Both the position numbers and the translations under genes were made by a program. The notes beneath the pieces were generated by a model. It saw only the letters and a program-made list of their open reading frames with translations, was not told the origin of the DNA and did no database searches. A stretch of DNA of 64,000 nucleotides, taken from the IMG/VR virus record IMGVR_UViG_3300022818_000051, positions 1 through 64,000 of that record, one strand, 5' to 3'. This stretch comes from a virus. Positions 3,841 to 64,000 of this stretch are shown in pieces. Each line of letters opens with the position of its first letter. Positions within the stretch are counted from its first letter, which is position 1.

Positions 3841-5335
3841 GAATCCACATACGATACTGTATTCGCCTTGTGGGTCAGGAAAATCGGTGGAATGTGCGTT
3901 CATGGCAGAAAATGCTGCGGAACGTGGCTATAAGACCCTTATACTTTCGCATCGTGCAAAAATCCTACGTCAGAACTTCTCTAAAATGGAAATGCTGGGA
4001 TTGCAAGTCCAGCAGATAACAGCCATAACAAAATACATCCATCCTTCGCAAATTTATATCGGGATGGCGCAAACCATAGATTCACGCTGTAAAAGCAAAC
4101 AGGAGTGGATTGAATGGATGCGCTCCATTGATTTCGTAATTGCGGATGAGTGTCAGAGGGCTGAGATTGGAAACATATTCAAGTACTTACGTGAAGATTG
4201 CTGGGTCGTTGGGCTTACCGCTACACCTATCAGGCATGGCACACAGCGGCAACTTGGCGATGAGTATTCCGATATTTCAGCAGCCGTAACTACTGAAGAG
4301 CTTATAACGTTAGGGCATATAGTACGGGCGGAATATTACAAATTTCAAGCACCGTTACTTACTTCCTGCACCATTGACCGTGATTCTGGTGACTATAATC
4401 AAAAACAGTTGCACAGTATTTTTGCCAAACCAGAAAGGTATGCGGGGATTATAGACAACTATCGACGCATATGTTGCGGCGAAAAGACACTATGCTTTAC
4501 GACAGGCGCAAGGCACTGTATAGATTTATGTAAAGAATTTTGTGCTGCGGGATTTCGGGCGAAATATTATATTTCCAGCAGAGATAAGGAAACATATGCT
4601 AATTATTCGGGAACGCAGGAATCGCTGGTGAAGCAACTGGAAAAAGGAGATATAGACATATTGCTGTCTATCACGTCATTAGATGTTGGAACTGATATTC
4701 CATCCCTTCAGGCGATATTGCTTGACTTCTCTACAAAATCATATACACGCTATCTTCAGGCTGCGGCAAGAGGGGACAGGCCATATCCGGGTAAGCTGTC
4801 CTACAAGATTCTTGACTTTGGTGGGAATCACACGGAATTTGGGGCGATTGAAGGAGATGCGCCTATGGCATTATGGCATAAGATTGGAGGGAACGGCGTG
4901 ATGCCGACAAAACTATGTCCGCCAGATAAGACTGACTGCAACGGGCGCACGGGATGTAACAGACTTGTACCTGTATCAACCATTGATTGTCCATTTAAGG
5001 GATGTGGATTTCACTTCCAAACCCATAGTGAGGTTTACGAAGTTACTCTTACAAAGGTAGTTGAGGCGGAATTGGGGGATTATGAATCATTGGAAGGATA
5101 TGTGGCGAGAATGAAACTTGAACACAAAGACAATAATTATATCCTTATAAATATCTGTATTAAAAATGCTGCCAACCCAAAAAAGGCATTTATGGAAGCG
5201 ATAAAATTAATGCAGAAAAAAGATGGGACATATATCTCGCCGCAATACTGGCATTTTTTTAGCCGTAACTTATTGAAAGATAAGGCGCAAAAGCAATTAG
5301 CAAAAGAGAAGGCGGCGATAAATAATCCTATTTGA
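3770..5335 (+). CDS. SF2 DEAD/DEAH-box helicase
   Basis: A 521-residue superfamily 2 helicase. Motifs in order: LRPYQQ (Q-like), Walker A SPCGSGKS, Walker B/motif II ADECQ (a DEAH-box variant), TATP (motif III), VGTDIPS (motif V) and QAAARGDRP (motif VI, arginine finger). After the helicase core a cysteine cluster (CPPDKTDC, GCNR, DCPFKGCG) probably binds zinc. Such phage proteins unwind branched or recombination DNA; the companion exonuclease upstream fits that role. It is the last gene of the left plus-strand operon. Confidence 0.88.
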   Translation: MKQNLTLRPYQQRSIQAARESLIKNPHTILYSPCGSGKSVECAFMAENAAERGYKTLILSHRAKILRQNFSKMEMLGLQVQQITAITKYIHPSQIYIGMAQTIDSRCKSKQEWIEWMRSIDFVIADECQRAEIGNIFKYLREDCWVVGLTATPIRHGTQRQLGDEYSDISAAVTTEELITLGHIVRAEYYKFQAPLLTSCTIDRDSGDYNQKQLHSIFAKPERYAGIIDNYRRICCGEKTLCFTTGARHCIDLCKEFCAAGFRAKYYISSRDKETYANYSGTQESLVKQLEKGDIDILLSITSLDVGTDIPSLQAILLDFSTKSYTRYLQAAARGDRPYPGKLSYKILDFGGNHTEFGAIEGDAPMALWHKIGGNGVMPTKLCPPDKTDCNGRTGCNRLVPVSTIDCPFKGCGFHFQTHSEVYEVTLTKVVEAELGDYESLEGYVARMKLEHKDNNYILINICIKNAANPKKAFMEAIKLMQKKDGTYISPQYWHFFSRNLLKDKAQKQLAKEKAAINNPI

Positions 5336-5355
5336 TTTGATTTGATTTGATTTGA
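5331..5355. repeat. TTTGA x5 tandem repeat
   Basis: Five perfect tandem copies of TTTGA, beginning in the last codons of the helicase gene and running past its TGA stop. Slippage here would leave the protein end almost unchanged, because every copy carries a TGA. Confidence 0.85.
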
Positions 5356-5362
5356 TCCGATT

Positions 5363-5402
5363 CTGCGCCAATCGCCTTAGTGAAAATGCGCCAAACGCCT
5401 TA
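5363..5402. repeat. TGCGCCAA(T/A)CGCCTTA direct repeat
   Basis: Two copies of a 16-base sequence with one mismatch, starting at 5363 and 5387 (24 bases apart), between the helicase end and a large hairpin. Function unknown; part of the convergent intergenic region. Confidence 0.75.
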
Positions 5403-5445
5403 ATTCTGCACATTATCGCCACCCATGATAATATGCAGAATTTTC
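5403..5445 (+). terminator. Long hairpin, candidate terminator of the left operon
   Basis: ATTCTGCA and ATTATC at 5403-5417 pair with GATAAT and TGCAGAAT at 5427-5441, giving a 14-bp stem with one mismatch and a 9-base loop, followed by a short T run. Placed about 70 bases after the helicase stop. The T run is short, so termination strength is uncertain. Confidence 0.5.
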
Positions 5446-5502
5446 ACGAATATCGACTACTTTTACTCCAACTCTGTCGCAAGTATAGCAAATATTGGAG
5501 TC

Positions 5503-5526
5503 AAAAAAGCCTCCGTGAAGAGGCTT
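5503..5526 (-). terminator. Intrinsic terminator of the replication operon
   Basis: Read on the minus strand: stem AAGCCTC (5526-5520) and GAGGCTT (5513-5507) with a 6-base loop, followed directly by a run of Ts (5508-5503). It lies 26 bases after the stop of the SSB gene, the last gene of the minus-strand block. Textbook Rho-independent form. Confidence 0.8.
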
Positions 5527-5551
5527 AAATGATTGTATATCAGAGTGGATA

Positions 5552-5932
5552 TCAAAAAGGCAAAGGCGAGCCCCCCTCGGCGAGTTCTGTTCCTGTTATC
5601 GGTGCTGCTGCGAGCGGGTCTACTACTGCCTGCTGCGGTGCTGCTCCACTACCATCACCTCTTACATCCAGACTCCATTTCCATAGGTTATTCTGTCCGT
5701 ACCATTTACCATCGTGCTCATTGGCACGGGTATTATAGTTTACGGTTATAATGTCACCTATGGTTGGGGCTGTCACCTGCTCGCCGAAATAATCCACCAG
5801 CAAACTTTGCGGATATTGCCCCATCACTTCCTTTACCGCAATCGCCCACGCCTTGAAGGCAGTGCCATCGCTTTTCTTTGTTCCTGCCTTGTCAATTACT
5901 GCCAAGACTTCGCCTGTAAATTTTAAATCCAT
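5552..5932 (-). CDS. ssb: Single-stranded DNA-binding protein (DUF3127 type)
   Basis: A 126-residue protein matching the DUF3127 single-strand DNA-binding family common in Bacteroidota and their phages: strand-rich N-terminus (MDLKFTGEVLAVID), SLLVDYFGE, and an aromatic segment KWYGQNNLWKWS likely to stack on bases. The flexible alanine/glycine/proline-rich tail ends GSPLPF, resembling the acidic D-x-P-F tip by which bacterial SSB recruits partners. The SF3 helicase of this phage ends with the same PLPF. Last gene of the minus-strand replication operon, followed by a strong terminator. Confidence 0.85.
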   Translation of the reverse strand: MDLKFTGEVLAVIDKAGTKKSDGTAFKAWAIAVKEVMGQYPQSLLVDYFGEQVTAPTIGDIITVNYNTRANEHDGKWYGQNNLWKWSLDVRGDGSGAAPQQAVVDPLAAAPITGTELAEGGSPLPF

Positions 5933-6083
5933 TTTGTTTAATTGTTATTTTACTGTCTACTTGGGCTCGGCTTCGACTTTCCGCTTATTTTAATGCGATT
6001 TAAGACGTTATTTTTATTTTACTTACTGGGTATCGGTTTTAGAGAGATAATTTAACCTGCGCCACGAAAAGCGGGCTGGCGTG

Positions 6084-6755
6084 TCATGATCTTGTTGTAT
6101 CTTTTACGGTTCTTCCGCCACCAATATGTTTGATGTAACCGGTTTTTGTGATGGCGGCGATGAAACCATATTTATCATAATAAAGTCTGGCGAGGTCAAT
6201 TTCATGACCCACAGCGGAATAGCCACCATCGCCTACCAATTTATAATCTGCGGTTTTGCGTAGGCCGCTGTTTAGAGAAAAGCCACTCCAGCCGTTCGCG
6301 CAGCCGTATTCAAGGAGGTCGTATTTATCGGAAAAAGCAACGACTTTATGACCATTCAAATCGTTTTGCTCACGTAAATGCACTTGCATAATCTTCGGGT
6401 CGGATTCTAATATCTCTATGCTTTTTTCAATAAAGGAATGGCGGAATAGTTCAAAATCATCCTCCATATGGAATATATAGGGTGTGGCAACCTGTTTATA
6501 CATTCGGTCTATGGATTTCATCTGTCCGACTTTTCCAAACATAACCCGCAAATTCATCTCTTCTGGCGCATACTTTCGAAATATTTTAACGATTTTATTC
6601 ATGATTTCGCCATCGAAATCGGTATCCTCACTGATTATGAACTCCGAAATAGCGGAATATGTGTTAAATTTAAAGAAGCTCTCCAACGTTCTTTCAAGCA
6701 GGTCAAATCTTCCGGCGGATGTAAGACAACAAGTTATTTCTGGGTGTTTGTACAT
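6084..6755 (-). CDS. Glycosyltransferase, GT2-like (GT-A fold)
   Basis: A 223-residue protein with the GT-A pattern: N-terminal strand ITCCLTSAGRFDLLERTLESF, then HMEDDFEL, a DxD-like metal/nucleotide-sugar site, and a conserved NGWSGFSLNSG acceptor-side segment. It transfers a sugar to an unknown acceptor; DNA bases, virion proteins or host glycans are all possible. It is separated from the other glycosyltransferases near 60-64 kb and is overlapped at its start by the HNH gene (22 bases, same strand). Confidence 0.75.
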   Translation of the reverse strand: MYKHPEITCCLTSAGRFDLLERTLESFFKFNTYSAISEFIISEDTDFDGEIMNKIVKIFRKYAPEEMNLRVMFGKVGQMKSIDRMYKQVATPYIFHMEDDFELFRHSFIEKSIEILESDPKIMQVHLREQNDLNGHKVVAFSDKYDLLEYGCANGWSGFSLNSGLRKTADYKLVGDGGYSAVGHEIDLARLYYDKYGFIAAITKTGYIKHIGGGRTVKDTTRS

Positions 6756-8640: not shown

Positions 8641-8657
8641 ATATGCAAAGATAATAA

Positions 8658-8912
8658 TTATTTTTGACTTTCTATGTTAATTATTGTTAATTCTTCCGCG
8701 TCTGTTATTTCATACCCTTTCAGTCTTGCCATCACTACCTCATCCCTTGTCCGCCCCACCTGCTCGTTTACCTGCCTACAGTATTCCGCCGCATAACCAA
8801 CACTTGCGAATACAGGTTGGGCGTATGGCTGTCCGTGACCTATCGGCGTTTCACGGCACAGGCGGTAGAGATTGTCGGGGCAGCGGATAGGGGATAAGAT
8901 GGTCGGTTTCAA
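8658..8912 (-). CDS. Hypothetical protein (84 aa)
   Basis: Unrecognised small soluble protein with a central helix (YAAEYCRQVNEQVGRTRDEVVMARLKGYE). It overlaps the preceding gene by ATGA, supporting translation. Confidence 0.6.
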   Translation of the reverse strand: MKPTILSPIRCPDNLYRLCRETPIGHGQPYAQPVFASVGYAAEYCRQVNEQVGRTRDEVVMARLKGYEITDAEELTIINIESQK

Positions 8913-9142
8913 TTTGTTGTCTTATTGTCGCATTTGGATAATAGTTTTTCAACCCTATCAAGGATGTTTCCCGCTAATGGCGCATTATACCGCAAATGAT
9001 CGTGTAAATGACCACCCCGCAAATCAAATAGCAAGTCTGCGCAGAACCTTTCGTAATCACATACTTCTCTTTGTAGTTCTAAAATAATCTGTAAATCCGA
9101 TGGGGTGCAACCCATACACGGTTCTAATTCTTCGTCTTTCAT
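8909..9142 (-). CDS. Hypothetical protein (77 aa)
   Basis: Unrecognised, mostly helical, with an N-terminal CMGC pair. It lies between the nuclease gene (12 bases away) and the 84-residue gene (4-base overlap) in the replication operon. Confidence 0.6.
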   Translation of the reverse strand: MKDEELEPCMGCTPSDLQIILELQREVCDYERFCADLLFDLRGGHLHDHLRYNAPLAGNILDRVEKLLSKCDNKTTN

Positions 9143-9154
9143 AGTTTTTAGTTA

Positions 9155-9622
9155 TTAAATAAATAAATCTTTATTCCAAATCAATGTTTTAAATTTTGTT
9201 TTCTTACAGTACTCCAGCACCCGCACGGGGTCTATCCAGCAATCTTCACCCTGTATGATTCGCTGGAATTGCTCAAGATTGTCCACAAATCCACCGCAAT
9301 CACCGACGTCAATTATAAATTCCGCCTGCTTTTTTATTCTCGCAACCTCATGTGTTTCGCCCGGGAACTTTAATTCCAAAGGTATAAGTCCTCGTCCGGG
9401 TTTTTCTTTATATATTAAATCCGAAGCACCGGGCATCAACCCCATAGAATCCTTCGTATTAACATCCTGACCCTCATTAAAAGTAGCCCAAAGCCTGCGG
9501 AAGTCTTTATACCAAATATTGCGATACCATAGAACGCACTCTACTTGCAACTTAGCCTCATATCTATGTGATGGCGGTCTCGGTCTTTTGCCCCATTTAT
9601 CAGGTTCTGGCTGTGTCCCCAT
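9155..9622 (-). CDS. VRR-NUC domain nuclease
   Basis: A 155-residue single-domain VRR-NUC protein. Seen: EAKLQVECVLWYR (entry helix), TFNEGQ, GLMPGASDLIY and PLELKFPG, which carry the D and E-x-K metal ligands of the PD-(D/E)XK fold. Stand-alone phage VRR-NUC proteins cleave branched DNA such as Holliday junctions, fitting resolution of replication or recombination intermediates before packaging. Its start overlaps the DUF3310 gene by 23 bases. Confidence 0.85.
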   Translation of the reverse strand: MGTQPEPDKWGKRPRPPSHRYEAKLQVECVLWYRNIWYKDFRRLWATFNEGQDVNTKDSMGLMPGASDLIYKEKPGRGLIPLELKFPGETHEVARIKKQAEFIIDVGDCGGFVDNLEQFQRIIQGEDCWIDPVRVLEYCKKTKFKTLIWNKDLFI

Positions 9623-10304
9623 ATTCTATTTCCATCAGCAACTCAATAAAATGTATCGCCTTTTTTAAATCTTCCGCACCATTCTTGCTCTTATAGCGGC
9701 AGATATATTTTATTATAGACCCCTGCGCATACGACAAGCCGTTTTTCTGTATAAACTCTATCGGCTGTATCGGCATATCTTTGTAGTGAGTGCCTGCGAT
9801 TTGGGAGTGGAGCGGGGATAAAACACCACCTGCCTGTGCGAAGATTCTATCCGCCTCTTTCTTGTCGCTACCGTTTGTTCCCGTCACGTTCATATTGCTT
9901 TGGTCGATGGCGTATTGCAGGAGGTCGGATTCCTTAGATGTGAAATGTTTGCCAATCTCGATTTTTGCTTCGCACAGGGTATTAACCTTTTTAGATAAAT
10001 CTTCAAGTATTTCATTAGCCTTGCTTGTAAAACAGGTTTCCAAAACGCTCTCGATTATTTGCTCCATCAGCACAGGATATTCCATTTCTGGGTTCGCATC
10101 TTTTTCTTTCGGCGGATTATACACCCGCCAAGTATTACTGTTCGTTGCGGAAATCCAGCACCCGTGGATGTCGCCTATTTCATTATATTCGCACTTATTA
10201 GGATTTTTTATTATAGTGCCAGTATTCTCATCTGTAAATTCCACAACCAGCCCATTTTGTTTGCTCTCCATTTGTATCGGATATTTAATTTTTTCTTTTT
10301 TCAT
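9600..10304 (-). CDS. DUF3310 domain protein
   Basis: A 234-residue protein whose C-terminal 70 residues match DUF3310: HYKDMPIQPIEFIQKNGL, QGSIIKYICRYK and EDLKKAIHFIELL. This domain is widespread in phages next to nucleotide-metabolism and replication genes, but its biochemical role is not settled. The first 160 residues are unrecognised and predicted partly coiled. Located between the primase-like and VRR-NUC genes. Confidence 0.8.
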   Translation of the reverse strand: MKKEKIKYPIQMESKQNGLVVEFTDENTGTIIKNPNKCEYNEIGDIHGCWISATNSNTWRVYNPPKEKDANPEMEYPVLMEQIIESVLETCFTSKANEILEDLSKKVNTLCEAKIEIGKHFTSKESDLLQYAIDQSNMNVTGTNGSDKKEADRIFAQAGGVLSPLHSQIAGTHYKDMPIQPIEFIQKNGLSYAQGSIIKYICRYKSKNGAEDLKKAIHFIELLMEIEYGDTART

Positions 10305-27755: not shown

Positions 27756-28937
27756 CTAAACCAAAAGTTTAACCTTGAATTTTTCTTCCTTCATAGTCCC
27801 GGCTAATGCTGGCAACTCCAGAAGCTCTTCGGGGCGTTCCACCCCTGAATATTTTAGTAATCCCCAATCCAAAATATTGAGAGCAGCATTTTTATCACGC
27901 AATACCAACTCCCCACACTTGGGGCAAATCCATGTTCGATCTGCAAGGGTTAAATCCTTATTGATATATCCACATCTATTATGTATTTTGCTACTGGGGT
28001 CGAATCGTCCTATTTCGAGTACATTCTTTCCCCTCCATTCTGATTTATATTTCAAAAATGTCACAAACATCCCCCAACCTGCATCACTAATGGATAGGGC
28101 GAGATGATGATTTTTTATCATATTTTTCGGGGATAAATTCTCAATGCAAATAGTATCATATTGCTTGGTTATTGCATCTGACGCTTTATGCAAGAAATCC
28201 TTTCTTTGGTTGGTTACTTTTTCGTATAATTTGGCTACTTTGTAATTTGCTTCTTTGCGATTATTGCTTCCTTTTAATTTACGAGAAGCCCTATGTTGCA
28301 ACACTTTTAATCTTTTCAAGGATTTTCGCAAACATTTTGGGTTCTCAATTTCAGCACCATTAGAGAGTACCGCAAAAGTTTTTATTCCTAAATCAATACC
28401 TATGGATGTTTTTTTGTCCATAGGCTTTTTATCTGGTATATTAATTCCTGTTTCGATTAGTATGGAGACGAAATATTTATTGGTCGGGGTTTTACTAATA
28501 GTTGCGCTTCGGATGATTCCATTTAATGGACGGCAGAGTACCATCTTGATTCCATTTTTGAATTTTGGAATGTATAAGCAATCGCTTTTAATGGTTATTT
28601 TCTGTGGGCAATGAAATGACTGATTATTGGATTTCTTTTTAAAGTTTGGGAATTTAGCTCGGCCTTTGAAAAAATTATTATATGCGCTATCTAAATTAAG
28701 TAGGGAATATTGCAATGATTGACTATTAACCTCTCTTAACCATTCATGTTCAACCTTTAATCCCCTTAATTGCGCTTGTAAATCATATCTGGAAAGAGTA
28801 ATTCCTGATGTTGAATATGCCTCTGTTTTTCTGCTTAATGCAAGATTGTAGATAAATCGGACACAACCAAAATGTTTAGCCATTAATTCCTTTTGGGAAT
28901 TATCAGGATATAGTCGATATTTATTAGCCTTCAACAT
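27756..28937 (-). CDS. tnpB: TnpB RNA-guided nuclease (IS605 OrfB family)
   Basis: 393 residues from ATG 28937 (MLKANKYRLYPDNSQKELM), the usual family start; 13 extra upstream residues are possible. RuvC-like site complete: D182 in GIDLGIKTF, E266 in CIENLS and D348 in LRDKNAALNI. The zinc finger keeps C322, C338 and C341, but the first ligand is H319 (SKIHNRCG instead of the usual C-x-x-C). RNA-guided DNA cleavage is established for TnpB relatives; activity here is inferred. It may behave as a homing enzyme without TnpA. Confidence 0.9.
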   Translation of the reverse strand: MLKANKYRLYPDNSQKELMAKHFGCVRFIYNLALSRKTEAYSTSGITLSRYDLQAQLRGLKVEHEWLREVNSQSLQYSLLNLDSAYNNFFKGRAKFPNFKKKSNNQSFHCPQKITIKSDCLYIPKFKNGIKMVLCRPLNGIIRSATISKTPTNKYFVSILIETGINIPDKKPMDKKTSIGIDLGIKTFAVLSNGAEIENPKCLRKSLKRLKVLQHRASRKLKGSNNRKEANYKVAKLYEKVTNQRKDFLHKASDAITKQYDTICIENLSPKNMIKNHHLALSISDAGWGMFVTFLKYKSEWRGKNVLEIGRFDPSSKIHNRCGYINKDLTLADRTWICPKCGELVLRDKNAALNILDWGLLKYSGVERPEELLELPALAGTMKEEKFKVKLLV

Positions 28938-28941
28938 ATAA

Positions 28942-28972
28942 CAAAGGTACAATAAATATTTAACAAAAACAA
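28942..28972 (-). promoter_or_regulatory. tnpB promoter (nearly leaderless)
   Basis: Minus strand: TTG (28972-28970), 20-base spacer, TACCTTTG (28949-28942), then ATG at 28937. Transcription would begin at or next to the start codon. Confidence 0.6.
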
Positions 28973-28993
28973 GCATTTTGGTTAAAAATATTT

Positions 28994-54170: not shown

Positions 54171-54857
54171 TCATTCATTGATAACACCGTCAGCAACTAA
54201 TTTAGCTTTTTGGGCTGCATAGAATTCGACGCTGCCTTCCCTTGCCCCACCTGCGCCTCCACCGTCAGCAGGAACATATGCACCTTCTGCACCAAATGCG
54301 GAAAGTAAATCATTGTATTCCTTGTCATACTCGACTGCCAATACATCGGCTGTCATGTCTGCGGTGATACGTGAATTCACTAACCCCCTTGCCTTATCCT
54401 GTACCGACTTCCATTTCGGGTCGGGTTTCTTTGCGGAGAATAAATTCTCGGCAGTTTGGATAAGTTGTTCGGTGCGGGTCTTGGTTTCGATGCCTGTAAT
54501 CTTTTGGATAACGGGGTTAAGCATATCCTCCATCATTTTCTTCATATCAGCCAATGGGTCGGGATTTCCAACTATCGGCGTGAATGGAGTAGGGGGTGTA
54601 GGAACGATGGGCTGCGGGTGAGCGGTTTCCCATTCCTTTACGAAATCCGAAGTATCCTTGATATGATTTCCATTCATGGAATCAAGCGTTTTAAATGCCG
54701 AAGCAGTAAAAGCAGCAAGTTCGGTTTCTTCAGTTGCGAATGGCATTAGGTTTTCCAATGTATCGCTGATGGTTCTGTCACTCAGTTTAAGGGTTTTTCC
54801 CTTTTTTGTAAATTGTGCCTTCAGGTCTTGAAGGACTTCTTGTGATGTGAATTTCAT
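54171..54857 (-). CDS. Capsid scaffold-like protein
   Basis: 228 residues. Helical ends with a proline-rich centre (PIVPTPPTPFTPIVG) and an acidic, alanine-rich C-terminal part (SAFGAEGAYVPADGGGAGG). Position before decoration and capsid genes and the helical design fit a scaffolding protein. Confidence 0.72.
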   Translation of the reverse strand: MKFTSQEVLQDLKAQFTKKGKTLKLSDRTISDTLENLMPFATEETELAAFTASAFKTLDSMNGNHIKDTSDFVKEWETAHPQPIVPTPPTPFTPIVGNPDPLADMKKMMEDMLNPVIQKITGIETKTRTEQLIQTAENLFSAKKPDPKWKSVQDKARGLVNSRITADMTADVLAVEYDKEYNDLLSAFGAEGAYVPADGGGAGGAREGSVEFYAAQKAKLVADGVINE

Positions 54858-55006
54858 AGGTTTTATGAGTTTTGGTTAAAAAAAATAAGCCCAAACTACA
54901 GGCGTGTTTCGCTTGTTGTCTGGACTCGAAGGTCTCTGTGGCCTTATGGCCGTATATGTTGAAAATGACCATGCAGCAGTTCTTGTGGTATGCTACACGG
55001 TACTGT

Positions 55007-55183
55007 TTATTCTATATCACTTGCCTTTATCATGACTAAATTCATTTCTCCACAATGCCTGCAATACATTGATAACACAACCGTACCTGTTGCGGAAATA
55101 ACACATACTGGCAATTTCTTGCCACATTTGCATATTTCCTGACCTTTTGCGGTACGTTTTAGAATATCGTCTGTACGCTCCAT
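55007..55183 (-). CDS. Com-like zinc finger protein (58 aa)
   Basis: ATG 55183, encoding MERTDDILKRTAKGQEICKC then CGKKLPVC and CRHCGEMNLV. The C-x-C-G...C-x-x-C-G-x-x-N arrangement resembles phage Mu Com, which binds the mom mRNA to allow translation. No mom-like gene is seen here. First gene of the late structural operon, with a strong promoter just upstream, so it may regulate late genes at the RNA level. Confidence 0.65.
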   Translation of the reverse strand: MERTDDILKRTAKGQEICKCGKKLPVCVISATGTVVLSMYCRHCGEMNLVMIKASDIE

Positions 55184-55219
55184 TTTACAATATTAGTGTC
55201 CTACATAACTATTCGACCC

Positions 55220-55250
55220 CAAAGATAAGCATTATTTTATTATCTACCAA
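55220..55250 (-). promoter_or_regulatory. Late structural operon promoter
   Basis: Minus strand: TTTG (to 55248), 20-base spacer, TATCTTTG (55227-55220), 37 bases before ATG 55183. Perfect match to the Bacteroidota consensus. Confidence 0.75.
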
Positions 55251-55258
55251 ATATTTCG

Positions 55259-55266
55259 TATCTTTG
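55259..55266 (+). promoter_or_regulatory. Probable terminase promoter element
   Basis: TATCTTTG on the plus strand, 24 bases before ATG 55290, back to back with the late promoter. No TTTG at the 20-base distance, so likely weaker. Confidence 0.5.
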
Positions 55267-55289
55267 TCGTCAACTTCTATTTTACTTCT

Positions 55290-58070
55290 ATGCTACGATT
55301 AAAAAACCCACATGCGGAATGGCCTAAATTGTATCCGAAAGTTGAAAGATACGAAGGCACGATAAAAGATAAGGGATGGGTGAAAGTTGACGGAATTTTA
55401 CTTAGAGATAATATAGATTTAATACCCCAACTTGGTCTGCAAGAACAAGTTATGATGTCTGAGTGCGACCTTATATTTATGGCTGGGGCAGCTACTATGG
55501 GAAAAGAACAACCATATGACGCTGATATTATAACGCCTGATGGAATTAAAAAGATGGGAGACATAGTTATTGGGGATATTATTTCTGACGACAAAGGTTG
55601 TGCTCAACGGGTGTCTAATATTTTTGAACAAGGGGTAAAGGATTGTTTTCGTTTATATTTTGACGATGGGAGTTCCTGCGAATGTGGGGTAGACCACTTA
55701 TGGAAAATAAAAAAGACGGGTAATAAAAAATGGCACGAATGGGAGATAGTTAAATTCTCTGATATAAAAAAATGGATAGACTCCCCGCATAAAGGAGAGA
55801 ATATGTTTATCCCGCTATCTGATAAGGTTGAATTTAATAGCGAATCCAAATATCCAATAAAACCATACACATTAGGTGCTTTAATAGGAGACGGATGTCT
55901 GGTTTGTGGTGGAAGTCAAATTAGGCTTACTTCAGGCGACCCTGAAGTTCCTAATTATATAAAAGAGGACGGTTACGATGTTAGAAAATTAAATAACCCT
56001 AAAAACATAGAGTATAGTGTTCATGGATTGGATATATATAATAATTTGAAGATATTGGGATTAGCTGGGCTTAAATCCAATAAAAAATTTATACCAGACA
56101 TATATAAAAATAGTCCTATCAAAATCAGATTGTCTTTAATTCAAGGATTAATGGACACAGATGGATGTGTAGATAAGAATCATAGACTTAGATTTTACAC
56201 TATAAGCGAAAGGCTGGCTATTGATATTCAGTGGATTCTAAGGTCACTTGGCGCAAAGGCTTCCATTAGAACAAAAAAAGCCACCTATACCTATAAAGGT
56301 GAGAAAAAACAAGGGCAACTATGTTATTCTGTGTACATAAATTCTTCCGATAATGCTTCATTTTTGAGATTAAAAAGAAAAAAAGATAGATGCACGAGTA
56401 TTTTTAATGGCGGAAAATCTGATATAGGACGCAAGGTATTAAGGTATGGATACAGTGGAGTTAAAAAATGCCGATGTATAAAGGTGGATGGATATAGCCA
56501 TCTATACCTTACAAATGATTTTATAGTTACACACAATACCTTCTCTGGGTTTATGAAGGCACTACAAGGGTTAGGCAGAATAGGTTACACAGGTCGTTTA
56601 ATATCAAAAAGATTGCAGGACAGCAAGAAGGGAGGGTCAATCATCCGTGATGCTAAACAAGTTTTCGATGGATTCGCTGGTTGCGAATTTACATCAGGTG
56701 AATATCCTACCGCGTCTTGGAGCCAATGGAATTCCACGATACAATTAACTCACGCAAATTTCAATACCGACAACCCTTCAGAGTGGGAGGAATATAAAGA
56801 CTTCGCCAAGAAAGCTCAATCGGCCTACCAATATTGGGACGAACTCACTGAAATTAAGGACTTTAGGGTTTTCTCATACATGTTTTCAAGGAACAGGGAC
56901 GGGTCTGGGATGAGACCTTGCACTGTCGCATCCTTTAACCCAGAACACGAGCATTGGACTACAGATTTTTTAAGGCAAGCAGGATACATAGGGGATGACT
57001 GGTATGCTATACCCGAAAAATATAACACTGTAAAATATTTCGCAATACACGGTGACAGTATAAAAGATATTGTATTCGGAGATACCAGAGAAGATGTTGC
57101 GATAAAAGCCAATATTATACCAACAGAAGAAGAACTTGATTATGGGTTGACGGCTCTGGATATAGTAAAATCATTCACCTTCCTGTCAGGGTCAGCCATG
57201 AGTAATAAAATATTGGTCAACGCTACTGGCGGTGGGTCGATTGCCAATCTTTATAATGTAGGGGAAACGGAACGTAAAAAAATAAAGGAGGGATATTTTG
57301 GTGCGGATGGGAAAAGCGAACTTACCGTCACTACCAAAATGATTGCCAATTTATGGGAAAATCCTACCGATACATCTAAGGAGTTATTCGCCACAATGGA
57401 CGTGGCAAGTGGCGGAGGGCACATATTGGAGCAATCTGACGGGAAAGAAATAAAACACGATAACTGTACAATGTGGATATGGAGGGGATTGACGGCCATT
57501 GACATACAGGTATTTGAAGGCTCATTAAAAGAATTAGTTCCGTGGATTGAATCTACTCTTGCGAAATGGGGTATTCCTGTGCGCAATTTTGCATTTGATG
57601 CGGTTGCAATAGGATATTTTCTTGCGAGTTTCACGGATGGCATACCTATTGTTGGTAATTCACGGCCAATCCCCGAATATGATGCGGTTGGAAATCAGGT
57701 GTTGTTAGGGTCATACTTCAACCTGCGAACTCAATTAATGGCAAAAACGGCGATGCTGATTGCTACGGGGCAAATGAGCATATCTGTAGACAGGAATAGA
57801 TTATTACCACACGGGCACAATAAGACACCCAAAACGCTGTTTGACATAATGCAGGATGAAAAAAATGTATTCATTCTCGATAAAAAAAATACAAAAGACT
57901 ATTATAAGTCAAAAACAGAATATATGGATAGGTTTAAATCATCTCCTGACTACTTTGACCCATATATATATCGTGCGAGATTCGAGCTTGATGCAAGGCC
58001 AAGAAAAGAGGAAGATGTTGTTTATACGGCATTTGATTATGCGGGGCTATACTCTGGCTGGGGGCGATGA
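55290..58070 (+). CDS. terL: Large terminase subunit, interrupted by an intein
   Basis: 926 residues as translated, 582 after splicing. Extein parts: DLIFMAGAATMGK (residues 60-72) joins TFSGFMKAL after the intein, rebuilding Walker A GAATMGKT. The C-terminal nuclease half has ATMDVASGGG (metal-binding D) and FAFDAVAIGYFL. It translocates and cuts concatemeric DNA into proheads. The gene runs alone on the plus strand between two minus-strand blocks and overlaps the HNH gene by 34 bases at its end. No small subunit or portal gene is adjacent. Confidence 0.9.
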   Translation: MLRLKNPHAEWPKLYPKVERYEGTIKDKGWVKVDGILLRDNIDLIPQLGLQEQVMMSECDLIFMAGAATMGKEQPYDADIITPDGIKKMGDIVIGDIISDDKGCAQRVSNIFEQGVKDCFRLYFDDGSSCECGVDHLWKIKKTGNKKWHEWEIVKFSDIKKWIDSPHKGENMFIPLSDKVEFNSESKYPIKPYTLGALIGDGCLVCGGSQIRLTSGDPEVPNYIKEDGYDVRKLNNPKNIEYSVHGLDIYNNLKILGLAGLKSNKKFIPDIYKNSPIKIRLSLIQGLMDTDGCVDKNHRLRFYTISERLAIDIQWILRSLGAKASIRTKKATYTYKGEKKQGQLCYSVYINSSDNASFLRLKRKKDRCTSIFNGGKSDIGRKVLRYGYSGVKKCRCIKVDGYSHLYLTNDFIVTHNTFSGFMKALQGLGRIGYTGRLISKRLQDSKKGGSIIRDAKQVFDGFAGCEFTSGEYPTASWSQWNSTIQLTHANFNTDNPSEWEEYKDFAKKAQSAYQYWDELTEIKDFRVFSYMFSRNRDGSGMRPCTVASFNPEHEHWTTDFLRQAGYIGDDWYAIPEKYNTVKYFAIHGDSIKDIVFGDTREDVAIKANIIPTEEELDYGLTALDIVKSFTFLSGSAMSNKILVNATGGGSIANLYNVGETERKKIKEGYFGADGKSELTVTTKMIANLWENPTDTSKELFATMDVASGGGHILEQSDGKEIKHDNCTMWIWRGLTAIDIQVFEGSLKELVPWIESTLAKWGIPVRNFAFDAVAIGYFLASFTDGIPIVGNSRPIPEYDAVGNQVLLGSYFNLRTQLMAKTAMLIATGQMSISVDRNRLLPHGHNKTPKTLFDIMQDEKNVFILDKKNTKDYYKSKTEYMDRFKSSPDYFDPYIYRARFELDARPRKEEDVVYTAFDYAGLYSGWGR
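55506..56537 (+). mobile_element. Class 3 intein with LAGLIDADG endonuclease in terL
   Basis: Residues 73-416 of the terminase frame. Block A: DADIITPDGIKKMGDIVIGD. It begins with E73 instead of Cys/Ser. The class 3 WCT triad is visible: W138 in DHLW (block B), C396 in CIKVDG (block F) and T414 in VTHN (block G), followed by Thr417. Endonuclease motifs LGALIGDG (194-202) and LIQGLMDTDG (283-292) keep their acidic residues, so homing may be active. Splicing is needed to restore Walker A. Confidence 0.9.
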
Positions 58071-58912
58071 CCGTGACCTTGCTTCCCGATGCCTTTAGTA
58101 AAAGCTTTTTCTATGTCCCATTTTTCGTCATACAATCTGTGATATACAGTATGATAAGGCATATTCAAAAATTCACACCACTGGGCTAATGTCTTTGTTT
58201 CTCCCTTGTACTTAATATTTAAGTTTCTTCTGGTGTTATTACACTGCTCCTTCATATTTATCCATCTGCAATTTCCGGGTGAGTAGTTTCCATTATTATC
58301 TCGTCTGTCGATTGTTAATAATTCTGAATATCCATTATTCATTGACCATTCGTTGAATTCCTCAAAACCGTTCCCCCTTGTCCATTCATCGCAAACTTCA
58401 ATCCCCCTACCTCCGTAATCACAATATTGTTTTAATTTTTTATAATAGCACCTACTCTTTAACCCAAGCCAAATATCATATATTCTACTTCTTGATAGCC
58501 CATGGGTAATGTTGGCTTTATTTAGCATCTCTAATGCGTAACATCCACAAGATGTTGTACCCCCACATACCAAACTCCCTCTACATACGGATGTTATTTG
58601 ATTTTTATCACAACTACATTTGCATAGCCAATACTGGTTACCCCTTTTTATATTATCTCTTCCTATGACTGTGAGCCTCCCAAATATCAACCCAGTTAAA
58701 TCTTTAGGATACCCTGAACTCCATTTTTCACATCCACAACTCGATGTATGTCCACTCCTGACATTATACCCATCCGCTACAATATGGTTCTTATCCTTGC
58801 AATCACATTCGCACTCCCAAAGCGCACGACCGCCCTTATCCCGTCCTGCAAGTCGCAATGCGGTAAGATGTCCAAATTTTTTACCAGTTAAATCATTCCT
58901 TAAACTTCCCAT
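58037..58912 (-). CDS. HNH homing endonuclease (copy 3)
   Basis: 291 residues. Two N-terminal modules (NDLTGKKFGHLTALRLAG...SSCGC and DLTGLIFGRLTVIG...TSCGC), HNH core (CDEWTRGNGFEEFNEW, TIDRRDNNGNYSPGNCRW) and one C-terminal module (TKTLAQWCEFLNMPYHTVYH). Its last 11 residues lie antisense to the end of terL. Paralogous to copies at 6734 and 11365. Probably spreads by cutting intronless terL-region DNA in related phages. Confidence 0.85.
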   Translation of the reverse strand: MGSLRNDLTGKKFGHLTALRLAGRDKGGRALWECECDCKDKNHIVADGYNVRSGHTSSCGCEKWSSGYPKDLTGLIFGRLTVIGRDNIKRGNQYWLCKCSCDKNQITSVCRGSLVCGGTTSCGCYALEMLNKANITHGLSRSRIYDIWLGLKSRCYYKKLKQYCDYGGRGIEVCDEWTRGNGFEEFNEWSMNNGYSELLTIDRRDNNGNYSPGNCRWINMKEQCNNTRRNLNIKYKGETKTLAQWCEFLNMPYHTVYHRLYDEKWDIEKAFTKGIGKQGHGHRPQPEYSPA

Positions 58913-59020
58913 AATCTTTAAATATTAACCCCCACGCAGCAGTGATAGCAGCACAACCACGCAGGGGCTTGAAAAATACCATGTTCGTCTATCTGCTTAT
59001 AGACTTCTTGTTCGCAATTA

Positions 59021-59476
59021 TTATTTTTTTTCTTCTCTACATTTTTTACACCAATTCCACATCCATCCATCATCATATATTTGCACGTCATCTTTTGACC
59101 CGCAATGTTCGCAGGTGGCTCCGCATTCTTCTTCGGCCTTATCTACCAATGCCTCTATAGCATCGGTAAAACTGCCATATACCCGCAGACCTGCATACTT
59201 ATCCTTTATGTCTGATATGCGCACACCCTTCGTTACGGATTCCAATACGTGCAGCCAAAAGAAGCTGCGGACATAAACTACACTTCCATTGGTGGCCAAT
59301 AAGTTAATAATATTTAACACCACGGCGGGAATATACCACGGTCGCACAAGTTTGTCAATGTCACGAATCAGCCGTAAGATAATCGGCTTCCATGGGTCGG
59401 GAACATTAGGGTAGGTGTAGCCGAGATAACCATAACCGATAAAGATGGAGCGGGGGGCGTGGGAAAAGTTAGTCAT
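59021..59476 (-). CDS. Hypothetical protein with zinc-finger C-terminus (151 aa)
   Basis: Start set at ATG 59476 (MTNFSHAPRSIFIGYGYLGY), since the longer frame would overlap a tRNA gene. Long aromatic N-terminal part, then CEHCGSKDDVQIYDDGWMWNWCKKC, a C-x2-C...C-x2-C zinc finger. Unrecognised; similar proteins occur in other phages without a known role. Confidence 0.7.
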   Translation of the reverse strand: MTNFSHAPRSIFIGYGYLGYTYPNVPDPWKPIILRLIRDIDKLVRPWYIPAVVLNIINLLATNGSVVYVRSFFWLHVLESVTKGVRISDIKDKYAGLRVYGSFTDAIEALVDKAEEECGATCEHCGSKDDVQIYDDGWMWNWCKKCREEKK

Positions 59477-59494
59477 AAAATCAGGGTCGTTAAT

Positions 59495-59569
59495 TGGTTG
59501 CGAGTCCGTGAATTGAACACGGGTCATGGGGATATGAACCCCATATACTAACCACTATACCAACTCGCA
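59495..59569 (-). tRNA. tRNA-Met/Ile2 (CAT anticodon)
   Basis: 75 nt with encoded CCA. Acceptor TGCGAGT pairs with ACTCGCA, anticodon arm TGGGG-TTCATAT-CCCCA (anticodon CAT), T-arm CCGTG-TTCAATT-CACGG. The first pair T-A argues against an initiator tRNA, which has an unpaired 1-72. May be elongator Met or the lysidine-modified Ile2 tRNA. Confidence 0.9.
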
Positions 59570-59680
59570 ATGCTATAGTCTCTCCTATTGTCACCCTTCT
59601 ATAAGGCACTCGGTGTTCGTTCCGTTAGGGTGTGCCAGATAATTTCGATTGACGGAATTCGCTTCACGTTTCGGGAATTG

Positions 59681-59752
59681 TTACAACAGACAGATTTGGA
59701 CTGCCGACCTTCAATTTATCAGACTGATGCTCTACCACTGAGCTATGTTGTA
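59681..59752 (-). tRNA. tRNA-Ile (GAT anticodon)
   Basis: 72 nt, no encoded CCA. Acceptor TACAACA/TGTTGTA, D-arm GCTC-AGTGGTA-GAGC, anticodon arm TCAGT-CTGATAA-ATTGA, T-arm GGCAG-TCCAAAT-CTGTC. The T loop has C in place of the usual T at position 55, and G-T pairs occur in two stems, so it may be weak or decaying. Confidence 0.82.
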
Positions 59753-59821
59753 ATTTTGGGAAGGCTTCCGATTCACATCGTACTTCCCTGCATATTATGA
59801 GAAAACATTAAAGTTGTACGA

Positions 59822-59852
59822 CAAAGATAGTATTTTATTTTGGATTGTGCAA
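59822..59852 (-). promoter_or_regulatory. Promoter of the tRNA operon
   Basis: Minus strand: TTTG (to 59850), 20-base spacer, TATCTTTG (59829-59822), about 70 bases upstream of the tRNA-Ile gene. Confidence 0.72.
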
Positions 59853-59869
59853 AAAGTTCACAGTTTATT

Positions 59870-60232
59870 TTATTTTATTTCTAAACAACATTTTACAATC
59901 CATTCAACTAAATACGCATCCGCTTCAATACCTGTTATTTCTTCGCCCAAAAATTCCCACACCCTGCGTGCTATATGGGTTGCTTCATGTGTAATAATCG
60001 GAATATCTTTCTTTTTGCTTTTAAAGACTATTAAAAATGAGCTGGCTTTTGTCTCTTTGTTGATTATATTTCGATACGAATAAGCAATACCATTACACCA
60101 ATCAATTTCTAAAACTTCATCATCTGTTGATATAAAATTTTCTAAAACAGCTTGCAGGTTATCCGTATATGCTATATATAACCTTATCGGATATATTACA
60201 GGGTTGAACTCATGTATCTGCACTTTTTTCAT
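59870..60232 (-). CDS. Putative zinc metallopeptidase-like protein
   Basis: 120 residues. HEATH (H82-E83-x-x-H86) with a following acidic residue in GIEADAY (E103), the arrangement of HExxH-type metalloproteases. N-terminal half forms strands. The hosted motif spacing and small size resemble a minimal peptidase, but no family is recognised and the substrate is unknown. Confidence 0.65.
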   Translation of the reverse strand: MKKVQIHEFNPVIYPIRLYIAYTDNLQAVLENFISTDDEVLEIDWCNGIAYSYRNIINKETKASSFLIVFKSKKKDIPIITHEATHIARRVWEFLGEEITGIEADAYLVEWIVKCCLEIK

Positions 60233-60259
60233 TGGTTTTTATTTTTTTTAATTAAATAG

Positions 60260-60297
60260 AATAAGCCAAAAAGGACGTTACTGCTAATTGGCTTATT
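60260..60297 (-). terminator. Hairpin terminator
   Basis: AATAAGCCAA (60260-60269) is perfectly inverted at 60288-60297, 18-base loop, with Ts on both sides. It lies after the 60355-60645 gene on the minus strand. Probably stops transcription before the HExxH gene. Confidence 0.6.
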
Positions 60298-60354
60298 TTG
60301 ACGCTCATAACATCTTAAACATGACTAATAATTGTAAATAAAAACGCAATCAGA

Positions 60355-60645
60355 TTACAGTCTCTCAAGTGTTTTGCCAGATTCAGTCATAATGAAGTAT
60401 GAGTTATTCCTGAGTGAGGTTGCTTTAAACACAAAAAATACCTTTTCGTTTTCTCCGATGATAAGAGATTCTATCTCTAAATCAGATTCAGAAGGGAATA
60501 AATCCTTCATAATTCTGCTAAATTCTTTTGAACACCCCTTCTCTATTTTGGTATAGGAAAGTCCAAGTTCAAAATTTTCAATAACCTGCTCAAATGGGAG
60601 TTTTTCATTTTCCCGCACTTCTTCGATAATTCTTAATGTGTACAT
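60355..60645 (-). CDS. Hypothetical protein (96 aa)
   Basis: Unrecognised, acidic, mixed helix and strand (VIENFELGLSYTKIEKGCSK). It has its own promoter and a 5' leader with a 6-bp hairpin (ACCCGA/TCGGGT, 60663-60680), suggesting separate control. Confidence 0.62.
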   Translation of the reverse strand: MYTLRIIEEVRENEKLPFEQVIENFELGLSYTKIEKGCSKEFSRIMKDLFPSESDLEIESLIIGENEKVFFVFKATSLRNNSYFIMTESGKTLERL

Positions 60646-60692
60646 ATCTGTATGTATTTATTACCCGAAAACTGTCGGGTGCAGTATTATTA

Positions 60693-60723
60693 CAAAGATA
60701 CGATTTTAATTATGTATAAACAA
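60693..60723 (-). promoter_or_regulatory. Promoter of the 96-aa gene
   Basis: Minus strand: TTG (60723-60721), 20-base spacer, TATCTTTG (60700-60693), 48 bases upstream of ATG 60645. The TTG part lies inside the end of the glycosyltransferase gene. Confidence 0.68.
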
Positions 60724-61293
60724 CGCCCTATCAATCTTTCTTATCAGCAACCCCATATCCACACACTTCCTGACGCATTCAACCGCAAATGCACCGTCTG
60801 CGCTATGATGGTCGTGCGTAAAGCCCACCTCTTTGGCTATATCCAGACGTACAATAAATTCACCCATGTCTATCTTGCATTCAGCCGTTTCGCATGAGAA
60901 ATAATCATAATGGTCGTAAGAATGCAGGCAGTCGCACATTACGAATCCTGTATCAGGAATGCACGCTGACAGCATTTGTTCGACAAATTCGGTGACATAA
61001 TAATTATCATCATTTGTAATCAGCACATAATCACCTTCTTCGTGCGGTATATTTTCAAGCATCCATTTCCTGTTCGGATGACCATAATTTCCCCTGCGCA
61101 GATGCGACACGATAAAATGTATCCGCGGCTCGTTGGCATATAGCGATGATGACCTGATTACCGCATCCGATGGGTCGCCGTCATGCACAAACCATAATTC
61201 CCAATCGGAACAGGTCTGCGCCAAAAAGCTATGGAGAAGTATTGTCATCTCCACAGGTCGCTCACATGCCACACAGATAACTTTTAGTTTCAT
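60706..61293 (-). CDS. Glycosyltransferase family 2 protein
   Basis: 195 residues with GT-A features: VICVACERPVEMTILLHSFL, WELWFVHDGDPSD, and the metal site ITNDDNYY. It has no membrane helix. It may act on phage proteins, DNA, or host glycans. Clustered with two other glycosyltransferases and a methyltransferase. Confidence 0.85.
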   Translation of the reverse strand: MKLKVICVACERPVEMTILLHSFLAQTCSDWELWFVHDGDPSDAVIRSSSLYANEPRIHFIVSHLRRGNYGHPNRKWMLENIPHEEGDYVLITNDDNYYVTEFVEQMLSACIPDTGFVMCDCLHSYDHYDYFSCETAECKIDMGEFIVRLDIAKEVGFTHDHHSADGAFAVECVRKCVDMGLLIRKIDRALFIHN

Positions 61294-61296
61294 AAC

Positions 61297-61998
61297 TTAT
61301 AGGGCGAATACCGCCCCTCTTATTCCGTTCTCCACTGATTTTCGCAATTCTTTCTCAGGCATAGCGTAGTGCCATGACCAGCCCTGTGACTTATTGAATT
61401 CACTGAGGCGGGAATTTAGGTAGCGGTTTCTATCTACTGTATATTGCACCGATAAGTGGCGCATGTGTAGGATTTTTATTCCGAGCGTTTCCTTTCGGAT
61501 TATACCTATTGGGTGGCAGCTATGACATCCCGGCGCATAATTTATTTCCGAAATTGCAGAAGGGCGGAACATTACACATTTTGTCGACGTGACATGGATG
61601 CCTTTATTCACTTGGTCTACTATCTGCCCATCAGTATCGGGGAATTTTGCACAATACATGTTCCACATTTCGGGTTCGATGATTGTAGCGTCAGTTGTTT
61701 CCAGTAACGCCAGTAGCTGCGAATGATAAACAAACTCGTCAGCATCGGCTACGATAACCCAGTCGGCTGAAGATAGCTTCCAGCAATTGTTTTTCGCTTG
61801 CAGATACCATGCGTTGTTGATTTCGTCAGGGGTGTTTATGTCCCAGACATGCGCATGTGCGGCCTGTGCCAGCGGGATGGAATTGTCCGTGCAGTTATTC
61901 GCCAAAATGGTCACGTCAGAGAATTGCTGATAATGCCTGATGGCATATGGCAGCAGACGCTCTTCGTTGTGGCAAAGGAGGAAGGTTTCGATGGTCAT
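61297..61998 (-). CDS. Glycosyltransferase (GT2/GT92-like)
   Basis: 233 residues. Starts FLLCHNEERLLPYAIRHYQQ, then VIVADADEF (DxD site) and a motif GCHSCHPIG before KILHMRHLS. The latter part matches the gene at 63312 (GCHACAPTG, then HCKYIDL), so the two are paralogs from duplication. Confidence 0.83.
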   Translation of the reverse strand: MTIETFLLCHNEERLLPYAIRHYQQFSDVTILANNCTDNSIPLAQAAHAHVWDINTPDEINNAWYLQAKNNCWKLSSADWVIVADADEFVYHSQLLALLETTDATIIEPEMWNMYCAKFPDTDGQIVDQVNKGIHVTSTKCVMFRPSAISEINYAPGCHSCHPIGIIRKETLGIKILHMRHLSVQYTVDRNRYLNSRLSEFNKSQGWSWHYAMPEKELRKSVENGIRGAVFAL

Positions 61999-62001
61999 GG
62001 T

Positions 62002-62172
62002 CTATTCGTCAATTAATTCTGCCGATAACTTAAAGGTTTTCTCTCTGTCTGTGAATTGCAACCATCCATCTTTGCCGGCTTTCAATGTAAATGTAAATTC
62101 ATTACCATCACACCTCATACATTCCTTCGGCTCATTATTATCAAACTGATAATACACTACTGTTTTTTCCAT
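62002..62172 (-). CDS. Small hypothetical protein (56 aa)
   Basis: ATG 62172. Encodes MEKTVVYYQFDNNEPKECMR, CDGNEFTFTLKAG and an acidic end. C-x-x-C pair only. It fills the gap between two larger genes with 3-11 base spacing, which supports it. Confidence 0.58.
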   Translation of the reverse strand: MEKTVVYYQFDNNEPKECMRCDGNEFTFTLKAGKDGWLQFTDREKTFKLSAELIDE

Positions 62173-62183
62173 AATTTTATTTA

Positions 62184-62516
62184 TTAATCAAATTCATAAT
62201 ATTCGCTACTCGCCGCAATAATCGTTCCGTATATACGTTCTGATTTATTCCATTTGCCATTTACGCAACTGAAGACTATTTTAAAAACCTTACAAGGAGG
62301 AAAAGACTGCGGAAAGGATGTGTAGTTAAATGAGGGTGACTCCTTATATATAAATTCAATAGTTTCGCCGACTTCTTGCGCTTCAATAAATGAAGGCATA
62401 TTATACAGAGAAGACGTCGTGCCTGAAGCATATATATTTACGCCTGTGCCTGATAGTCGATCTGCGCTCGCAGTACCCAAGGACACTGTGAGTCCTTTGT
62501 TTGTATTTGTTTCCAT
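62184..62516 (-). CDS. Hypothetical protein (110 aa)
   Basis: Unrecognised. Serine/threonine-rich N-terminus (TASADRLSGTGVNIYASGTT) then strands. Two bases from the methyltransferase gene. Confidence 0.6.
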   Translation of the reverse strand: METNTNKGLTVSLGTASADRLSGTGVNIYASGTTSSLYNMPSFIEAQEVGETIEFIYKESPSFNYTSFPQSFPPCKVFKIVFSCVNGKWNKSERIYGTIIAASSEYYEFD

Positions 62517-62518
62517 AA

Positions 62519-63076
62519 TTAAAAAGGCATTAAATTAAAAACCATGATAGTATTCTTAAACCATGGCAGCCGTGATACACTGCGCAGGTTGTGCGAAGCG
62601 TCCCTGCCATAAGAGTATCCTCGCCTGTCCATTTCGGCGATAATGTAGTCATTGTTGCGACAGTTCACATGCCCCTGTCCGCACTGACCTTCAACTGCCC
62701 ATGATAGGATAATCAGTTCAGGGTTGGGGCGCACGAGGTTGTCGAGGAATATCTGTTCGTATGGGGCGGGGATATGTTCGCCGACTTCAAGAGAAATAAC
62801 AATATCAAATACGCCAATATCTATCGGTTCGGAGAAATCACGCTGGCAGCACAATCCATTGGTAATTTTTTCGGTAAGAGGTGATCCGTCAAGTCCAACA
62901 CACGCAAACCCTTTACTTAGCAAATATTTTACATATGCCCCATTCCCGCAACCTATATCTACAATAATGGCGTCAAGGGTGCATTCTTTTGTTATAGCTT
63001 TCGCCAGCTTTTCGTCAAACATATGGCCGTTCACTAAATCTTCTGACAGCCAGCAGCCTGTTTCGCTAATGTTCAT
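62519..63076 (-). CDS. SAM-dependent methyltransferase (class I)
   Basis: 185 residues. Motif I VDIGCGNGAYVKYL (SAM binding), motif II CVGLDGS, and motif IV FDIVISLEVGEHI. It resembles enzymes methylating small molecules or sugars more than DNA methylases (no NPPY). Being among glycosyltransferases suggests modification of a glycan. Confidence 0.85.
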   Translation of the reverse strand: MNISETGCWLSEDLVNGHMFDEKLAKAITKECTLDAIIVDIGCGNGAYVKYLLSKGFACVGLDGSPLTEKITNGLCCQRDFSEPIDIGVFDIVISLEVGEHIPAPYEQIFLDNLVRPNPELIILSWAVEGQCGQGHVNCRNNDYIIAEMDRRGYSYGRDASHNLRSVSRLPWFKNTIMVFNLMPF

Positions 63077-63078
63077 GG

Positions 63079-63315
63079 TTAATTATTTTCAAAAGTCACT
63101 TTGCCCGCGAATTTTACGAATAAAGTATCCAATATATGTTTGGAAACTTTATTAAGAATAAGTCCCCTACATTCATTATCAACAAGATAGATACCGTTAA
63201 AAATATCTCCTACTTGTTCATAAAACATCACAATAGAGCCGTTATCTATACGCTTCATTATTACTGGAAATCTCATTTGGTTAATACTCGCATTTTCAAT
63301 TACTTCTGTTTTCAT
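63079..63315 (-). CDS. Small hypothetical protein (78 aa)
   Basis: Unrecognised, strand-rich (FPVIMKRIDNGSIVMFYEQV, GIYLVDNECRG). Overlaps the neighbouring gene by ATGA. Confidence 0.62.
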   Translation of the reverse strand: MKTEVIENASINQMRFPVIMKRIDNGSIVMFYEQVGDIFNGIYLVDNECRGLILNKVSKHILDTLFVKFAGKVTFENN

Positions 63316-64000
63316 AATTTTAATTTTTTTGATTTATTAATCATTCCATTATATTCCTCTATCGCTGCATCCTTGTCAGCCATGTATTGCACACCCCAGC
63401 CATTAGTTTTGTTTATGTCCGACATTCGTGATTGCGTCAGGAAGTGCCGCTCCAAATGATAATTAAGGTCGATATATTTACAATGGAACAGATATATACC
63501 CCCTCCATCATAATAATTTACCCGACCAGTCGGGGCGCAGGCGTGACATCCTGCACTAAAATTTATCTCTGCAATCTCGTTTGGGTTAAACAATACCCGC
63601 TTGCCAAACCACGGATAATGATAACCGAAATCTATCGTTTCGTGCATTAACCGATGCGGTATATACACGGGGAACTTTTTGGATAAGAGTTGATAGATAA
63701 TGGGTAGGCATATTGTCTGCCTATTCGCCCGCATATTGACAAGTTCCCACTCTAAATCGTCCGACCACAGGGCTTCGTCAAAATCGCATATCACCACAAA
63801 GTCCGCATGACCACGGCTGGATTTCCAAATATTATTCTTGAATTCGGTAAGGATTTCATCGTTCACTTCGTCCTTCCACGGATAGTCTCGCAATTCGACA
63901 TTGAATCTCGTCTCGCCGCGCAGTATATCCTGCACGCCATCCGTAGAACCACAGTCATAGACATATACATTTGTTGCAAACCTCGCCCAATAATCCAGCA
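63312..64000 (-). CDS. Glycosyltransferase, 5' end beyond the window
   Basis: The frame stays open to the window edge, reading LDYWARFATNVYVYDCGSTD before the first internal start; this D-x-G-S-T-D pattern is typical of GT2 nucleotide binding. Then VVICDFDEAL (DxD-like) and GCHACAPTGRVNYYDGGG. Paralog of the 61297 gene. Confidence 0.83.
   Translation of the reverse strand, partial: LDYWARFATNVYVYDCGSTDGVQDILRGETRFNVELRDYPWKDEVNDEILTEFKNNIWKSSRGHADFVVICDFDEALWSDDLEWELVNMRANRQTICLPIIYQLLSKKFPVYIPHRLMHETIDFGYHYPWFGKRVLFNPNEIAEINFSAGCHACAPTGRVNYYDGGGIYLFHCKYIDLNYHLERHFLTQSRMSDINKTNGWGVQYMADKDAAIEEYNGMINKSKKLKL

Follow-up and report, generated by a model that had tools for sequence, protein, structure and literature searches.

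The window analysed here comprises bases 1–64000 of a 72,321-base IMG/VR virus record. Its plus strand encodes a large terminase precursor (terL), the Walker A motif of which is interrupted by an insert with the features of an intein (Table 1). The insert corresponds to precursor residues 73–416, located between GAATMGK and TFSG, and intein-free alleles in related phages define its two ends with single-residue precision. Searched on its own, the C-extein matches PHROG 979 'terminase large subunit' (E 2.2e-16), and the terL product is 38–58% identical to the TerL of related phages. The GC content of the intein is 34.2%, as compared to 38.9 and 41.6% for the exteins. The original prediction of an intein inside the terminase Walker A motif was exact in coordinates, lengths and residues, and the spliced product of 582 residues that it foresaw agrees with the length of the predicted frame minus the intein. 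Judging from its split Walker A motif, the precursor would not be an active ATPase.

Table 1. Features of the terL region and other genes of the window
Feature	Position	Strand	Remarks
IS-type transposase gene	27756–28976	−	PHROG 506, E 2.4e-121
TATCTTTG, mirror copy	55220–55227	−	pattern match only
TATCTTTG, candidate Bacteroidetes-type −7 box shortly before terL ATG	55259–55266	+	pattern match only
terL, large terminase precursor ORF	55290–58070	+	926 aa; predicted 582 aa once spliced
N-extein, 72 aa, ending in Walker A GAATMGK	55290–55505	+	empty allele L064 reads GAATMGK, then T
Class 3 intein (assignment supported), 344 aa (E73 to N416), Hint domain and LAGLIDADG endonuclease	55506–56537	+	profile matches, fold, relatives
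C119 (intein C47), aligned with redox-partner Cys48 of Msm DnaBi1	55644–55646	+	phmmer alignment
Block B HLW: H136 and W138 (W of WCT triad)	55695–55703	+	H 48/48, W 42/48 non-identical relatives
LAGLIDADG motif 1 (LGALIGDG, acidic D201)	55872–55895	+	D in 46/48
LAGLIDADG motif 2 (GLMDTDG, acidic D291)	56145–56165	+	D in 46/48
Block F CRC: C394 and branch nucleophile C396	56469–56477	+	C396 48/48; C394 13/48, including all five TerL-family inteins
Block G THN: T414, H415, N416 (cyclising Asn)	56529–56537	+	48/48 each
C-extein, 510 aa; first residue is Walker A Thr and +1 acceptor	56538–58067	+	
HNH endonuclease gene	58037–58912	−	PHROG 374, E 2.7e-84
tRNA gene	59498–59569	−	Rfam RF00005, 61 bits

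Upstream of terL, the two divergent TATCTTTG boxes in the interval towards the capsid operon (55220–55266) resemble a Bacteroidetes-type promoter pair; over the whole window, matches to this type of box were not above chance. At the opposite end, the HNH endonuclease gene runs antisense to terL and overlaps its 3' end by 34 bases. As an HNH homologue is located at the same place (5475–6107) in L086, a relative with an empty site, two kinds of homing endonuclease are present around terL. In most relatives the portal gene comes immediately after terL and has the same orientation. In the record, ~10.8 kb lie between the two genes (58071–64000 of the window and 64001–68836 of the record), occupied mostly by minus-strand glycosyltransferase, methyltransferase and HNH genes, and the portal gene (68837–70396 of the record) is inverted. 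The tRNA gene was the sole Rfam match over 54800–59600, a region in which Rfam revealed no intron. The IS-type transposase gene lies inside the phage record as well.

Occupied and empty terminases

An alignment scan with the C-extein retrieved 30 more related TerLs besides L062, L063 and L002, some rows being near-identical copies. The insertion site is readable in 33 close TerLs, that of the window included, and of these 28 are empty and five carry an intein at the identical position. L068 was coded as unreadable, its contig beginning just past the site. The empty allele L064 reads LIFLCGAATMGK followed by TYGMFL, with the same seven junction residues (GAATMGK) as the window, and L063, whose contig was binned with a Lachnospiraceae MAG, is the intein-free sister of L062, which carries one. 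Scans for closer relatives returned none above ~60% protein identity. Likewise, a near-identical intein-free target site was not found among the empty alleles, where the best junction DNA match reached ~29–31 of 48 bases (L064, L063).

Every stage of a homing cycle is represented in this single terminase family: empty sites (L064, L063), full inteins with both acidic LAGLIDADG residues kept (window, L062, L073), an intein that has lost the Asp of motif 2 (L002, from Parabacteroides phage PF672P1) and an eroded mini-intein of 255 aa (L091). The splicing residues are kept in all five inteins. The presence of both D201 and D291 in the window bears out what had been claimed for the endonuclease motifs and, in combination with the tested mycobacteriophage terminase inteins (PMC5050341), suggests that the endonuclease is active.

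In the TerL tree the five occupied rows fall on five separate branches and require 5 state changes, a number that is retained when L068 is treated as an unknown leaf. The intein tree groups the five TerL inteins with L003, the intein of another terminase; the unconstrained tree sets this non-family member beside the window intein, and a single clade is not rejected by the AU test (p 0.43). The grouping is compatible both with repeated invasion and with a long-resident intein that was lost many times, gain and loss not being separable on the TerL and intein trees. As a separate observation, two contigs from one sample, L068 (1–565) and L091 (4014–4578), share terL DNA that is 97% identical, and L068 starts ~14 bases after the L091 splice junction; this could reflect an assembly interrupted at an intein-plus/minus polymorphism.

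The original prediction had also raised the possibility that packaging is controlled through the intein. In such a scenario the terminase would stay idle until splicing, at a rate tuned to the phage cycle, and the Walker A position would indeed tie ATPase activity to splicing. Conditional splicing is documented in other P-loop inteins, for example the class 3 intein Msm DnaBi1 under H2O2 (PMC6195587). However, the intein is missing from most of the readable close TerLs, its five carriers are scattered over the TerL tree, the eroded endonucleases of L091 and L002 are in keeping with a parasite in decay, and terminase inteins tested elsewhere spliced fast (PMC5050341). Because the distribution shows a homing cycle, a control point is unsupported as a conserved function, and we regard it as improbable. 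A conserved regulatory role was rejected on account of the absence of the intein from most related terminases.

A redox-gated form of such control would involve a C119–C396 (or C394–C396) disulfide that stalls splicing under oxidation. The single concrete lead is C119, the counterpart in the alignment of Cys48 in Msm DnaBi1; under H2O2, this Cys48 and the catalytic Cys of DnaBi1 become linked by an inhibitory disulfide (PMC6195587). The CRC motif places a second Cys (C394) two residues ahead of the nucleophile in all five TerL-family inteins. The match at C119 may be due to chance, since a Cys occurs at this position in only 3 of 48 relatives, with Val in its place in the sister TerL inteins. 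Redox gating appears very unlikely; if true, oxidation would stall the DNA packaging of a presumed anaerobe's phage.

Splicing residues and predicted fold

Alignment of the 48 non-identical inteins gathered here confirmed the W-C-T triad named in the original prediction (W138, C396 and T414). C396 sits in KCRC-IKV at block F position 4 (C2:4), and the class 3 Trp and Thr positions are both filled, by W138 at block B position 12 and T414 at block G position 5. N416 is the last intein residue and is followed by Thr at +1. Across the alignment the His of block B, Cys(F4), Thr(G5) and the His and Asn of block G are invariant, and the block B Trp is replaced by Phe in the remaining inteins. Residue 1, at an end fixed by the empty alleles, is Glu (E73), with no Cys or Ser nucleophile there; this position is variable among the 48 inteins (Ala 25, Glu 4, Met 4, Asp 4, Phe 4, Gly 3, others). 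Class 3 inteins are characterised by this combination of a free residue 1 and an invariant Cys in block F, so the alignment supports assignment to class 3, and the Glu, to which the original prediction drew attention, is unremarkable, as a residue 1 other than Cys or Ser is the rule in this class. The first relatives collected showed strong conservation of 'YTYKGEKK', which was set aside because this peptide had served as a search seed, which biased the set at that point; the catalytic residues lie outside the seeds.

The charged residue 1 might also be read as a sign of splicing by another route (a class 1 or class 2 variant), or of a dead intein. However, the W-C-T set is complete, the His residues of blocks B and G and the block G Asn are present, the Hint fold is predicted with high confidence, and three other relatives likewise start with Glu. 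A dead intein would furthermore ruin an essential gene, yet terL is otherwise intact and open. Both variants are highly improbable.

The AlphaFold2 model, calculated from 37 aligned inteins of the window and of viral loci, consists of a Hint domain and a LAGLIDADG endonuclease (mean pLDDT 93.9, pTM 0.92). A Foldseek comparison with the PDB matched it to PI-SceI (E 2.4e-17), to TliVMA and PI-PfuI (intein plus endonuclease) and I-DmoI, as well as to the class 3 inteins 6bs8 (1.2 Å over 69 columns) and 6rix. In sequence, the endonuclease part matches PF14528 (LAGLIDADG_3, E 5.7e-10) and PF05204 (Hom_end, 2.1e-6), and the first ~70 intein residues match gp41-1 with an engineered WCT triad (6riz) and the natural class 3 DnaB inteins of mycobacteria (6bs8, 6rix). 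The model fold, H136, H415, N416 and the +1 Thr together make up the expected features of a Hint-fold intein. With blocks B, F and G identified and matches to class 3 inteins in both sequence and predicted fold, the likeness to known inteins is far beyond chance, and the proposed kinship stands. That the 344 residues, in frame and without a stop, are an ordinary terminase domain is refuted in practice by the empty alleles, with 28 relatives lacking the insert exactly between K and T/S, and by its resemblance to inteins and homing endonucleases rather than terminases.

Proposed mechanism and known systems

By analogy with class 3 biochemistry, C396 would attack the K72–E73 bond directly, so that residue 1 need not be a nucleophile. 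The N-extein would then pass from C396 to the +1 Thr, N416 would cyclise, and an acyl shift would join GAATMGK to T and restore the P-loop. That splicing takes place is suggested by the conserved residues and by the tested mycobacteriophage terminase inteins (PMC5050341). The LAGLIDADG domain would cut intein-free terL, whereupon repair would copy the intein in. The intein would persist because it is fully removed after translation and because imprecise loss would kill the packaging motor.

Insertion between GK and T, or GK and S, was found in 41 of the 48 non-identical inteins. The hosts of the related inteins include terminases, PhoH, SNF2 and other helicases, DnaB, UvsX, a ClpB-like AAA protein and also plasmid TraD. 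One viral contig, L010, carries two related class 3 inteins (5088–6149 and 8649–9752), one in the P-loop of a PhoH-like protein and one in that of a helicase; the two inteins are mutual nearest relatives on the tree (bootstrap 99, SH-aLRT 75). The P-loop Lys/Thr site, termed 'classic', was reported for terminases in 2016 (PMC5050341). In that study five mycobacteriophage terminase inteins were shown to splice and two to have endonuclease activity, and terminase inteins are also present in Rak2 and K64-1 (PMC5259590). A terminase intein between GK and T of the P-loop is consequently a known kind at a known site, to which the window adds one member.

The mycobacteriophage TerL1-a inteins (Kelley et al. 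2016, PMC5050341) likewise separate the invariant Lys of the terminase P-loop from the Thr; splicing was shown for this group, and two of its members cut inteinless alleles. Their terminase family and host differ from those of the window, and the comparison is one of site, not of class. Parabacteroides phages PF672P1 and PF672P2 (OP172819, OP172820), in contrast, share the terminase family, the site and the class 3 residues with the window, along with the order of the capsid-side genes and terL. Their intein is 36% identical to that of the window, starts with Ala and has lost the motif 2 Asp (LMDIGG), and the gene is annotated only as 'hypothetical protein'.

Class 3 inteins as described by Tori and Perler (2011), in the account relayed by PMC7664689, have a residue 1 other than Cys, a block F Cys and the WCT triad, as seen here. 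A 2020 catalogue lists 1701 class 3 inteins, 82.5% of them with LAGLIDADG motifs (PMC7891396), and nothing essential sets the window intein apart from the class. M. smegmatis DnaBi1 (6bs8, PMC6195587) shares the class, the P-loop site and the Cys aligned with C119; unlike the window intein, it is a mini-intein without endonuclease in a bacterial helicase. TerL inteins are further typical of Delta-group crAss-like phages, i.e. phages of Bacteroidetes (PMC7886860). By description these are of Hint-Hop type, and the likeness drawn here is the presence of an intein in TerL.

In combination, we assign a probability of about 0.93 to a mobile class 3 intein in the Walker A motif of a phage large terminase that is a selfish homing element rather than a packaging regulator. 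The general picture of inteins and terminases is unchanged. The locus provides a clean annotated example of a class 3 intein in the terminases of Bacteroidales-type phages, whose nearest named relative is still listed without a function, and split terminases of this kind may escape annotation pipelines. With one terminase family displaying the complete homing cycle, the intein of this gut-type phage is most likely to act as a mobile genetic parasite.
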